Source: Planctomycetia bacterium
Lineage (GTDB): Bacteria; Planctomycetota; Planctomycetia; Pirellulales; JALHLM01
DNA: 38,715 bases
Direction of reading: 5' to 3'
Assembly: GCA_034440135.1 (NCBI GenBank)
Contig: JAWXBP010000388.1
Coordinates: forward strand, 1 to 38,715
Below the pieces are notes generated by a model, which saw nothing but the letters and a program-made list of their open reading frames with translations, did not search any database and was not told the origin of the DNA. The position numbers and the translations under genes were made by a program. This document shows positions 1 through 3,582 of the stretch, piece after piece. Within the stretch, counting starts at the first letter, position 1. Each line of letters starts with the position of its first letter.

Positions 1-1
1 G

Positions 2-184
2 CTGGTGCATGATCTGAAGTTGGTGCTCGGCCAGTGGTCGGTCAACGACGCGAAGTCCAATGAGCCAGCGGTGCTGCGTCAGCGTTTGCCGGAGTTGTTT
101 CAGAACTTCCCGTTACTGCATTCGACACCCCACGAACAGGCTAGCTGTAGGGCAAGACATCCTCTACCCCCCGCGCAAAGATGA
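2..184 (+). pseudogene. Remnant of ISAs1-like transposase (partial at window edge)
   Basis: An open frame runs in from the left edge and stops at a TGA at 182-184. Its first ~40 residues contain LKLVLGQWSVNDAKSNE followed by a leucine-rich stretch, which resembles the LVLGQ...KSNE segment near the catalytic core of ISAs1-family DDE transposases. After about position 125 the frame no longer looks like a transposase and soon ends, so the gene appears truncated or scrambled. No terminal inverted repeat could be placed because the element begins outside the window. The family call rests on recalled motif similarity only; another DDE transposase family is possible. Confidence 0.4.
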
Positions 185-628
185 ACCGCTGTTGCCTGGT
201 CGGCGCGAGCTGGTCACTGGCCTAGCTCCAACCGCCGCGCCGCCTCACGGTACATCCGCAGAAGGTCCGCCCGTTCAAACTCCCCGCGTAGCTGCTTCAG
301 TTGCTACAGTAGCAGCGCCCGAGGGTCCGGCAATTCTCGGCACCGGGCAATGATGGCTTCTAGGTGGTCGCGTAGATCGCGGGCGTTGGCGGGCATTGGG
401 GCCGGGTAGCCCACGGCACCGCTGTCTTTCAGGGCAGGACGCCGGGGCTCTGTGTGTCCCGTTTCTGTCGTCCGCCAAGTGTCTCGTGCCTTTTGGACCG
501 ATACGCTTAGGGTGGTGTCGCCGACACCTGTAACCGCCTGCGACACCCGGTTATTGCATACAACTTGCAAAATGCCGCAAGTGGAGTTGAGCCTATAAAA
601 CAAGGCTTTTATCGAAGAATCCAGGATA
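185..628. other. Gene-poor decayed stretch
   Basis: No convincing gene lies here. A minus-strand frame (603 down to about 220) reads through a coding-looking, Leu/Arg/Glu-rich segment, but a TAG at 304-306 interrupts it and it continues for only 28 more codons. It may be a broken helper or transposon gene. A small palindrome, ggtgtcg-c-cgacacc, lies at 514-528. The stretch sits between a transposase remnant and an abnormal tRNA-like sequence, which fits degraded mobile DNA. Confidence 0.35.
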
Positions 629-689
629 TCGGTCTAAAGCCAAGAACGCTTCCGAAGACCGATGCGCTATCCAGTTGCGCCACGGGCGC
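629..689 (-). pseudogene. tRNA-Arg(UCG)-like segment with 17-nt anticodon-loop insertion and no T arm
   Basis: Read on the minus strand from 689, the sequence matches a tRNA 5' part: acceptor strand GCGCCCG (689-683), TG, D stem GCGC, D loop AACTGGATA, D stem GCGC, then anticodon stem TCGGT (662-658). The 7-nt loop CTTCGGA (657-651) gives anticodon UCG. The matching 3' anticodon strand ACCGA is present at 633-629, but 17 extra nucleotides (650-634) separate it from the loop. No T arm or complementary CGGGCGC acceptor strand was found after it. It is either a tRNA relic, for example left by an element that inserted at the anticodon loop, or an intron-like interrupted gene with a divergent 3' half. 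Relic is the default reading. Confidence 0.5.
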
Positions 690-713: not shown

Positions 714-741
714 ATTGTACCAGAATACGGCGAAGTGCCAA
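714..741 (-). promoter_or_regulatory. Sigma-70-type promoter for the tRNA-like segment
   Basis: On the minus strand TTGGCA (741-736) and TACAAT (719-714) are separated by 16 nt, close to the TTGACA/TATAAT consensus. The tRNA-like 5' end at 689 lies 24 nt downstream of the -10 box, a normal leader length for a tRNA gene. The promoter suggests the locus was once, or still is, transcribed. Confidence 0.45.
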
Positions 742-793: not shown

Positions 794-1966
794 CTAGAGT
801 CTTGCGAAGGCTTCCAGGGCTTGTTCGATGTGTTCCGGCTCGAGCGCCGCGGAGACCTGCACGCGAAGCCGGGCCTGACCCTGAGGGACGACCGGGAAGC
901 CGAAGCCGACGACCATCACGCCGAGTTCCAGCAGGCGTTCGCTCTTGGCGATCGCTGCGGCCGCGTCGCCGATCATGATCGGGATGATCGCCGTGGGAGA
1001 ATCATGCAGGTCGAAACCGAGGCGGCTCAGTCCGGCGCGCATGGCGGCGACGTTGGCATGTAGTCGCGCGACGCGCTCAGGTTCACGTTCAACGATTTCG
1101 ATCGCACGCCGCGCGCTGTAGGCGACGGTGGCGGGCAGCGCGTTGGAAAACAAGCTGGGCCGACTGCGCTGGACCAGCAGATCGATCACCGCCTGTGAAG
1201 CGGCTACGTAGCCGCCGGCTGCGCCGCCGAGCGCTTTGCCGAGGGTGCCGGTGAGGATGTCGATTTCGTTGAGCAGGCCGAAATGTTCCGGCGTGCCGCG
1301 CCCCGTTTTGCCGAGGACGCCGACGCCGTGCGAGTCGTCTACGATGAGCAGCGCCTCGTAGCGACGGCATAGCTCAACAATCTCCGGCAACCGGGCAACG
1401 TCGCCTTCCATGCTGAAGACGCCGTCGGTGATCACGAATCGGGCCGCCTTGTCGGCGTGCTCGCGCAGCTTGGTTTCCAAGTCGTTGAGATCACTGTGCC
1501 GGTAGACCGCCTTCGTCGCGCCGCGGACCAGGCGGCAACTGTCGATGATGCTGGCGTGATTCAACTCGTCGGAGAGAATCACGTCCCCTTCGCCAGCGAT
1601 CGTGGGCAACAAAGCTTCGTTGGCGTTCCAGCAACTGACGTAAGTGAGCGCGCTCGGTGCGCCGACGAAGCGGGCGATCGTTTCCTCGATCTCGCGATGG
1701 CAGGCCAACGTCCCGCAGATGAAGCGGACGCTGGCCGTGCCGGCGCCGTACGCCCGGAGGCCGTCGTGGCCGGCGGCGACTACTTCCGGATGGTCGGCCA
1801 GGCCAAGGTAATTGTTGGAGCAGAGCACAATCACCGGGCCGCGGCCTTGGATCGTGGCGGTGGCCGACATCGGACCGGTGACGTAGGCCAGCCGCTTGTA
1901 TTGGCCGGATTGCCGGAGACCGGCCAGGAGGGCGTCGGTGCGTTCGTTGAATTGGCGATTGGGCAT
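794..1966 (-). CDS. kbl: 2-amino-3-ketobutyrate CoA ligase / AKB synthase-family PLP enzyme
   Basis: The 390-aa protein belongs to the alpha-oxoamine synthase family of fold-type I PLP enzymes. Kbl cleaves 2-amino-3-ketobutyrate with CoA to glycine and acetyl-CoA, the second step of threonine catabolism. Visible motifs: SNNYLGL near residue 50, GTASVRFICGT near 76-86, DELNHASIIDS near 133, DDSHGVGVLG near 210 (PLP ring contacts), and the Schiff-base lysine in GTLGKALGG (K244). FICGTLACH and the TLGKALGGAAGGY context favour Kbl over BioF. The start MPNRQF at 1966 was chosen because the longer frame runs into the divergent kinase gene and has no family-like residues. No threonine dehydrogenase gene is adjacent. 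It is divergent from the kinase/regulator pair and near a proline catabolism gene. Confidence 0.85.
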   Translation of the reverse strand: MPNRQFNERTDALLAGLRQSGQYKRLAYVTGPMSATATIQGRGPVIVLCSNNYLGLADHPEVVAAGHDGLRAYGAGTASVRFICGTLACHREIEETIARFVGAPSALTYVSCWNANEALLPTIAGEGDVILSDELNHASIIDSCRLVRGATKAVYRHSDLNDLETKLREHADKAARFVITDGVFSMEGDVARLPEIVELCRRYEALLIVDDSHGVGVLGKTGRGTPEHFGLLNEIDILTGTLGKALGGAAGGYVAASQAVIDLLVQRSRPSLFSNALPATVAYSARRAIEIVEREPERVARLHANVAAMRAGLSRLGFDLHDSPTAIIPIMIGDAAAAIAKSERLLELGVMVVGFGFPVVPQGQARLRVQVSAALEPEHIEQALEAFARL

Positions 1967-2064
1967 GAATACAGGTTCCCTGGGCCGTACGGTTCGAGCA
2001 TCATTGTCCCCAACTTTGTTGGGTCGGCAAGGCAGATGAGCCAGCCGGTAGGTGTCGCTCCGCA

Positions 2065-2093
2065 TTGCGAATCGGTGGAGAATGATCGACAAT
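2065..2093 (+). promoter_or_regulatory. Possible promoter for the histidine kinase gene
   Basis: TTGCGA (2065-2070) and GACAAT (2088-2093) are separated by 17 nt, about 55 nt before the chosen kinase start at 2149. A short dyad, cccaac-ttt-gttggg (2009-2023), lies further upstream in the same divergent spacer. The boxes only partly match the consensus. Confidence 0.3.
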
Positions 2094-2148
2094 TTACGAT
2101 GTCGGCCGCATGAATGCGGTCTGTTGCGTCGCCCCAGCCGGGATCGCC

Positions 2149-3582
2149 ATGACTGAGAACGCCACACCGGACATCACCTGGCCGATTCGCTATCAGTTAC
2201 TACTGCCGAACCTGGGCGTATTGGGGTTCGCGATTGTCGGCGCGGCGCTGTTGGGCGCCGTTTGGTCGGGGCGCGTGGCGGATCGGCGGATTGAGCACCA
2301 GTTGCATTCGATGGCGGCGACCTTGGCCAATTCTCGTTTTCCGTTGACGGACGCCGTGTTGGCGCAGGTGCGCGACCTTTCGGGAACGCAATTGGCGGTT
2401 ACCAACCAAGCGGGCAAGGTCGTTACGTTGAGCGACCCTGCGCTGGCCGCGTTTCCGTTTCAGGAGCTCTCGCCGCTGCGATCGGGAAACACGGAGCGCG
2501 TGAAGGTCATCTCCGATCGACAAGGCGAACAGTATTTGCATTGCACCGTTGCGCTGAATTCGCGTTCCGCGAACACGCGGGGCGAGACGTTGCATGTGCT
2601 ATTTCCGCATGCGCTGTGGTGGGACGCCGTCGCCACCGCGGTGTGGCCGCCGCTATTGGTGGGACTGGTCGGCGCGGGCATCGGCGTGCCGACAGGATTG
2701 CGTCTGGCGTGGCGGATCGCCGAACGCATCGAACGCCTGCGGCAACATTTGGCGCAACTCGCCGCGGGCCGGACGGAGCGACTTATTGTCGACGGGCCGC
2801 ATGACGAGTTGCGTTCGCTCGCCGTCGCGGCGAATCAATTGGCGGATCAACTCGACGGTTTTCGACAGACGATTCAACGGCAGGAGCGACTGGCCGTCGT
2901 CGGGCAGTGGAACGCAGGGCTATTGCATCAACTGCGGAACTGCGCCGCCGGAGCGCAGATGGCCGTGAGGATTCATCGTAAGCACTGCATTTACGGCGAC
3001 GTCGAAAGCTTGGACGTGGCGGCGCGGCAATTGGATTTGTTATCGGACCACGTGCAGCGTTCCTTGGTTATGGGACGCGAGGAGCGGCCCGCGCGCGGCA
3101 GTTGCCAAGTGGGAGAAGCGCGTCAGGAAATCATGCGGTTGCTCTCCCCGATGTTGCGACATCGCCGCGTGACGCTGGAATGGAATGGCGATGCCGACGC
3201 GACGATCGTGCCCGTCAGCTCCGAAAACCTGCGGCATTTGATTTCCAACTTGTTGATCAACGCGGTGGATGCGGCCGGGGCGGGTGGGAAGGTGACCGTA
3301 GCGTCGACGCGCAGCGAAGATCTGCGCACCTGCATTCACGTACGGGATTCCGGCCCGGGTTTGGCGACAGAGGTTGTTGCATCGGCCTTTGAGGCATTCG
3401 TCACCACCAAGGCTGAAGGAATTGGACTTGGGTTGGCGATTTGCCGGAGAATCATGGAAGACTGTGGCGGCAGCCTGAGCTATCGGCACGGCGACGGCGC
3501 GTGTTTCGAAGCGCAGTTTCCCGCTATAACTGCGGATACATTGAAGACTACTGAAACAGTGTCTGCCGGCGATACGACATAG
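2149..3582 (+). CDS. Membrane-bound sensor histidine kinase
   Basis: The protein has an N-terminal membrane segment (LGVLGFAIVGAALLGAVW, near residue 22-40), an extracytoplasmic domain of about 120 residues and a second membrane segment (PLLVGLVGAGIGVPTGL, near 167-184). A HAMP-like linker follows, then a dimerisation/phosphoacceptor helix with H260 in LLHQLRN. The HATPase region has an N box (NLLINAVDAA), a G1 box (RDSGPGL) and GIGLGLAICRRIM. It resembles NtrB-class kinases, which pair with sigma-54 activators, and the next gene is such a regulator 102 bp downstream. The input signal is unknown. The start at 2149 (MTENATPD) was preferred over ATG 2110 because a GGGA lies just upstream; the earlier start adds 13 residues and is not excluded. 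Confidence 0.88.
   Translation: MTENATPDITWPIRYQLLLPNLGVLGFAIVGAALLGAVWSGRVADRRIEHQLHSMAATLANSRFPLTDAVLAQVRDLSGTQLAVTNQAGKVVTLSDPALAAFPFQELSPLRSGNTERVKVISDRQGEQYLHCTVALNSRSANTRGETLHVLFPHALWWDAVATAVWPPLLVGLVGAGIGVPTGLRLAWRIAERIERLRQHLAQLAAGRTERLIVDGPHDELRSLAVAANQLADQLDGFRQTIQRQERLAVVGQWNAGLLHQLRNCAAGAQMAVRIHRKHCIYGDVESLDVAARQLDLLSDHVQRSLVMGREERPARGSCQVGEARQEIMRLLSPMLRHRRVTLEWNGDADATIVPVSSENLRHLISNLLINAVDAAGAGGKVTVASTRSEDLRTCIHVRDSGPGLATEVVASAFEAFVTTKAEGIGLGLAICRRIMEDCGGSLSYRHGDGACFEAQFPAITADTLKTTETVSAGDTT

Follow-up and report, generated by a model that had tools for sequence, protein, structure and literature searches.

Half of a tRNA-Arg(UCG) gene on a planctomycete contig as a probable scar of site-specific integration, and the integrases that presumably left it

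Introduction

How does a bacterial tRNA gene come to have a faultless first half, a promoter in front of it, and no second half? This question is raised by a stretch of 38,715 nucleotides from a Planctomycetia bacterium, called the window here, which is all of contig C388 in a genome of 7.3 Mb and 534 contigs. A first-pass annotation had described positions 629-689 as a tRNA-Arg(UCG)-like gene with 17 nt inserted next to position 37/38, and had taken decay after insertion of an element at the anticodon loop as the simplest explanation. Of this explanation the insertion of an element stands in outline, but neither the size of 17 nt nor the decay does, as the orphan half is undamaged over 40 of 40 nucleotides. 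What is seen is the precise integration, at a specific site, of an element several kilobases long, rather than a 17-nt insertion followed by decay. What looked like a puzzling interrupted tRNA thus turns into a real and well-explained integration scar, and what is of interest is the integrase family behind the scar, not the hairpin. Positions 629-689 are very probably the attachment site, attL or attR, at the distal end of an integrative element whose tyrosine integrase crosses over in the anticodon loop.

The orphan half and the intact gene in a related genome

Read from 689 to 650 on the minus strand, the window gives GCGCCCGTGGCGCAACTGGATAGCGCATCGGTCTTCGGAA, which corresponds to nucleotides 1-40 of a tRNA-Arg with the anticodon TCG. 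The acceptor 5' strand, D arm and anticodon stem-loop that had been noticed from the sequence are therefore present, on the minus strand, which the first-pass annotation did not specify. Also the promoter-like boxes reported upstream held up, forming a native promoter TTGGCA-N16-TACAAT with a spacer of 16 bp that was matched in 0 of 300 shuffles. After nucleotide 40 no T arm or acceptor 3' strand is found in the window, in agreement with what had been noted for the T arm, and the sequence which follows is unrelated to tRNA. ARAGORN and Rfam searches of the window called no tRNA or RNA family relevant to 629-689. A search for the 3' half on its own elsewhere in the genome returned complete tRNAs as the close matches. 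An intron-bearing or split tRNA was considered and rejected, there being neither a T arm nor an acceptor 3' strand in the window and no lone 3' half among the close matches in the genome.

On the other side of the orphan half lies chromosomal DNA, with a gene presumably of the 2-amino-3-ketobutyrate CoA ligase (kbl) type. In a genome of the same genus (G001) the kbl-type gene is followed by a complete, intact tRNA-Arg(UCG), identical to a copy on contig C487 of the genome studied here. DNA synteny between the window and G001 amounts to 86% over 5,359 bp and ends at window position 647, three bases beyond the 40-nt identity, and nucleotides 41-75 of the tRNA in G001 directly continue where the window has positions 1-649. 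The intact gene thus matches the window over nucleotides 1-40 and over nothing meaningful beyond, and an insertion of 17 nt beside position 37/38 was not confirmed. According to the definition used by Islander, G001 presents an empty site, although for the window's element only: downstream of its tRNA a different integrase is encoded, one with the usual arginine (GCRPQE). The presence of this second integrase makes the locus an integration hot spot. The features of the window are collected in Table 1.

Table 1. Features of the window around the orphan tRNA half
Feature	Position	Strand	Evidence
Distal end of the integrated element	1-649		absent from G001; arm-like sites; contig C388 starts inside the element
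Degenerate reading frame within the element end	2-181		no Pfam match
Second arm-like copy AGGTGTCGG	521-529	-	sequence; family arm motif GGTGTC
Arm-like site CCGGGTGTCGCA	539-550	-	12-nt exact match to a site beside the C487 integrase
Palindrome-like box GCCTATAAAACAAGGC	591-606		inverted copy of the C487 box beside the tRNA 5' end (GCCTAAAACAAGGC)
AGACCGAT, complement of the anticodon stem 5' strand	628-635	-	in element DNA; comparable match in 1 of 8 other elements
Displaced 5' half left as an orphan: nt 1-40 of tRNA-Arg(UCG)	650-689	-	40/40 identity to the complete C487 tRNA and the intact G001 gene
Anticodon loop CTTCGGA, predicted 7-bp crossover (overlap) region	651-657	-	direct-repeat ends in seven single-contig relatives suggest the position
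-10 box TACAAT, native tRNA promoter	714-719	-	0/300 shuffles as good
-35 box TTGGCA, native tRNA promoter	736-741	-	shuffle test; TTGGCA conserved in G001 too
Chromosomal flank, presumed kbl-type gene	794-2167	-	95% protein identity to G001, same gene order

As a side observation, positions 1-120 of the window show a 78% DNA match to G000:C389:4779-4897 in the same genome, and the stretch 1-181 is perhaps a transposase relic.

A complete tRNA beside an integrase gene

The first-pass annotation had suggested counting the tRNA-Arg(UCG) genes of the genome. A complete gene is located at G000:C487:6531-6605, the only other close copy of the orphan-half tRNA in the genome. A tyrosine integrase gene (6464-5286, minus strand) starts 66 bp from the 5' end of this tRNA and is transcribed away from it. 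Its product belongs to the Phage_integrase family (Pfam PF00589, E 2.2e-12) and to the PHROG 1 integrases (E 4.5e-30). A search of plasmid and phage collections for the integrase gave no match. Elsewhere on C487, comparison with PHROGs showed genes similar to phage primases and to a family of phage topoisomerases; the contig also encodes a small protein with a helix-turn-helix (HTH_17), possibly an excision factor.

The sites around the junction are shared between the two contigs. The palindrome-like box of the window agrees with its inverted counterpart on C487 over 11 nt exactly and over 15 nt if one mismatch is allowed, which none of 100 shuffles equalled, and CGGGTGTCGC occurs in two copies on C487. 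When inverted/direct scores against the window were compared, C487 reached 12/12 versus 8/10 and 8/11 for the other two elements of the genome. A single orphan half of this tRNA and a single complete, closely similar copy were found in the genome. Taken with the scores, this suggests that C388 and C487 are the two ends of one element, to which the C487 integrase would then belong. Against the pairing it has to be said that the two ends lie on different contigs of the assembly, so that the element is not seen whole, that no overlap between them was seen by eye, and that the arm match is short. The element of another genome (G157) matches the window arm region about as well, which is expected of one arm family. 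The 3' flank on C487 does not lend itself to comparison with G001 because G001 carries its different integrase there. In favour of the pairing, a further genome (G044) shows the same two-part pattern on two contigs.

A variant of the integration reading would derive the window junction and C487 from two different elements of one family, for example after partial deletion of an array, the window then being an abandoned half-site. It would be compatible with the separate contigs, with the similarity of arm motifs across family members, and with the degenerate appearance of window positions 1-181. We consider it improbable in view of the single orphan half and single complete close copy, and of the sequence which C487 shares with the window in excess of the genome's other two elements.

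The same genome contains further family integrases at tRNA-Met(CAT) (G000:C133, L021) and tRNA-Thr(CGT) (G000:C278, L011), both faced by the tRNA 5' end. A second, more diverged tRNA-Arg(TCG) is located on C87 (G000:C87:32-1583, L046), where a related integrase has the usual orientation, with the tRNA 3' end facing it; this integrase, too, reads GLGPAD at the position of the first arginine.

The integrase family in related genomes

An order-wide search with the C487 integrase covered 396 genomes, 101 of which gave hits with E <= 1e-40. In this order-level set, in which a few loci repeat one place, the adjacent tRNA faces the integrase start with its 5' end in 40 of 42 loci. A second list comprised 80 named loci (L163-L242), almost all of which come from records of Planctomycetota. 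Some source genomes occur in both lists, which are therefore not independent. An adjacent tRNA was found in 65 of the 80 loci, and in all 65 it turns its 5' end towards the integrase; 15 isoacceptors are represented. Of the remainder, 12 had no tRNA upstream of the integrase, a point against the reading proposed here, and three ran off the contig. The distance from integrase to tRNA ranges from 65 to 469 bp in the relatives.

Seven relatives carry the whole arrangement on a single contig: a complete tRNA lies next to the integrase, and its 5' half recurs exactly, over 39-41 nt and in the same orientation, at distances of 7.0, 14.5, 15.0, 16.1, 16.7, 16.8, and 30.8 kb. In all seven, the repeated sequence stops at the 3' edge of the anticodon loop or just beyond it. 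Judged by the two ends which Islander looks for, a complete tRNA and a cognate fragment in the same orientation and on the correct side with the integrase between them, all seven are complete elements, while in the genome studied here the presumed two ends are on C388 and C487. Viral contigs complement this picture. L245, L247, and L249 have a tRNA-Lys 5' half beside the integrase, with 36-38 of 40 nucleotides matching and then 8-12 of 34; a 5' half only is what is expected of an attP. L251 is similar but weaker. A chromosomal case is L193 (CP053450.1, isolate PNC22), with an integrase beside only the 5' half of a tRNA-Arg(CCT) (39 of 40, then 13 of 34), possibly a tandem array junction.

Between integrase and tRNA, a pair of GGTGTC-like direct repeats, mostly with a 12-bp period, was found in 54 of 65 loci as compared to 2 of 65 after shuffling. 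Counted back from the rebuilt tRNA in the loci with an adjacent tRNA, these repeats occupy roughly -77 to -59, and from there to the tRNA A-rich tracts recur at intervals of some ten bases (near -32, -22, and -11). From their sequence the repeats look like arm sites of the integrase and the A-tracts like bent DNA.

Proposed mechanism

The integrase would recombine an attP carrying a copy of nucleotides 1-40 of tRNA-Arg(UCG) with the tRNA gene that lies downstream of the kbl-type gene in the chromosome, the crossover falling within the anticodon loop. What the host had as its own 5' half would be left, together with the host promoter, at the far end, as seen in the window, and the 5' half of the element would be joined to the native 3' half to give the complete tRNA beside the integrase on C487. 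As the element supplies nucleotides 1-40 and the host the rest, a complete tRNA is rebuilt at the integrase end. The observations behind this scheme are that the tRNA is split at nucleotide 40, that a relative has the site intact, that a complete copy lies next to an integrase, and that arm-like sites are shared; in addition, relatives show the same architecture on one contig, and viral contigs have an attP in which only the 5' half is present. From these observations we presume where exactly the crossovers fall, that C388 and C487 belong together, and that the integrase is active.

Two unlikely alternatives: decay or a functional hairpin

Two further explanations have to be weighed at the junction itself, and both take their origin from the hairpin. 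ATCGGTCT (664-657) is able to pair with AGACCGAT (635-628), and the minus-strand RNA does fold into the one long hairpin that had been proposed, at -24.9 kcal/mol with a z score of -2.1; on the plus strand the hairpin was not obtained. The presumed displaced 3' anticodon strand, AGACCGAT, sits in foreign DNA. Its complementarity to the anticodon stem beats most shuffles at this locus (p about 0.009). Among eight other elements, one had a comparable complement (7 nt, p 0.055), so that it is no feature of the family and may be due to chance.

Decay of the tRNA gene to a pseudogene, with a short insert of 17 nt, would account for the missing T arm and for the ability of displaced AGACCGAT to pair with the anticodon stem. 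It is nevertheless very unlikely, since the 5' half is intact over all 40 positions, foreign sequence runs to the contig end, and the position of the junction and the arm-like sites fit the family of integrative elements; the intact site in G001 and the seven complete elements with the same junction disfavour it as well. Decay with a 17-nt insert was likewise discarded as a description of the window, in which everything leftward from 649 is foreign.

Least probable of all, to the point of being barely credible, is an intron-containing, split or processed tRNA or small RNA functional as a long hairpin, the alternative raised in the first-pass annotation, for which the retained native promoter and the stable predicted fold might speak, but which finds no tRNA or intron family match at 629-689 of the window even at a permissive threshold, lacks the T arm and acceptor 3' strand, and has to contend with an uninterrupted gene in G001, a complete tRNA elsewhere in the genome, relatives that become unrelated after nucleotides 39-41, and other elements most of which have no hairpin.

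The active site of the integrases

Integration into the tRNA gene thus being the preferred reading, the integrases themselves deserve attention. In an alignment with XerA the first catalytic arginine falls on Gly230 of the C487 integrase, and glycine occupies this position in 79 of the 80 named loci. The HxxR motif reads YxxR in the family, and Lys255, Arg333, His355, and Tyr364 are invariant or nearly so; Arg253 and Arg260 are conserved as well. The integrases are probably active, because the direct repeats of their elements are clean and related genomes do not have the same elements. Loss or a shift of the first catalytic arginine has been described for IntCTnDOT and IntDes (PMC8138268). As in the family described here, the first arginine is missing from its usual place in all or some members of these groups, and IntDes also has a tyrosine at the first histidine of the pentad, comparable to YxxR. 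IntDes, described only from Desulfovibrio and without an assigned function (PMC8138268), resembles the present family in motif, whereas the present family is tied to tRNA 5' halves.

Expression of the rebuilt tRNA

A review states that, very few exceptions apart, tRNAs rebuilt in bacteria retain the promoter they had originally (PMC8371274). This cannot hold here, where the host promoter sits on the orphan half. The working tRNA must be expressed from element DNA, and the host therefore either depends on the element for this tRNA or has it down-regulated; both are testable. Sigma-70-like promoters that beat shuffles (p<0.05) were found in 5% of the 65 element upstream regions, which corresponds to chance, as compared to 40% of 48 other tRNAs, in a consensus scan with E. 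coli-like weights, where a low score does not show absent transcription. Possible, though rather doubtful, is the broader proposal that a clade of planctomycete elements, whose integrases have a non-canonical active site (Gly in place of the first catalytic Arg and Tyr in place of the first His), nearly always exchanges the 5' half and promoter of a tRNA gene and thereby puts the host tRNA supply under an attP region with 12-bp-spaced arm repeats, phased A-tracts, and no recognisable sigma-70 promoter.

Relation to known systems

Of the 3,919 islands counted by Islander, 3,760 leave a 3' fragment and 159 a 5' fragment (PMC4383910). Its 5'-fragment islands resemble the elements described here in the tyrosine integrase, the crossover centred on the anticodon, and the complete tRNA at one end with the cognate fragment at the other, but 5' fragments are rare there (PMC4383910), whereas in the present integrase family the 5' arrangement is nearly exclusive, over at least 15 isoacceptors. 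In the review cited above, archaeal pTN3-like integrases are said to use the 5' half of tRNA genes, and loss of the native promoter to be seldom encountered in bacteria (PMC8371274). The attB described there, citing Cossu et al. 2017, is a tRNA 5' half, and the rebuilt tRNA is without its native promoter, as here. The review also characterises pTN3-like integrases as archaeal and 'suicidal', with the att site inside the integrase gene (PMC8371274), whereas the hosts of the present family are mostly Planctomycetota and the integrase reading frame on C487 is whole, divergent and 66 bp away from the tRNA.

The kind of event is thus known; a bacterial integrase family that performs 5' restoration nearly always, and for which this rare mode is the norm, seems to be less described in the open-access papers searched. 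The rule that the tRNA faces the integrase with its 5' end offers a simple way to locate both ends of such elements in planctomycete genomes, and scars consisting of 5' halves explain false tRNA fragments in annotation. In classical 3'-restoring tRNA islands the anticodon loop and stem is also a possible core site, but there the 3' fragment is displaced and the host promoter stays on the working tRNA, whereas here the promoter is left on the orphan half. An arrangement apparently of the 3'-restoring type was observed at the same tRNA in another genome (G019:C116; L079, L080), where a complete tRNA-Arg(TCG) is followed by two copies of its 3' half 0.5 and 35 kb downstream.
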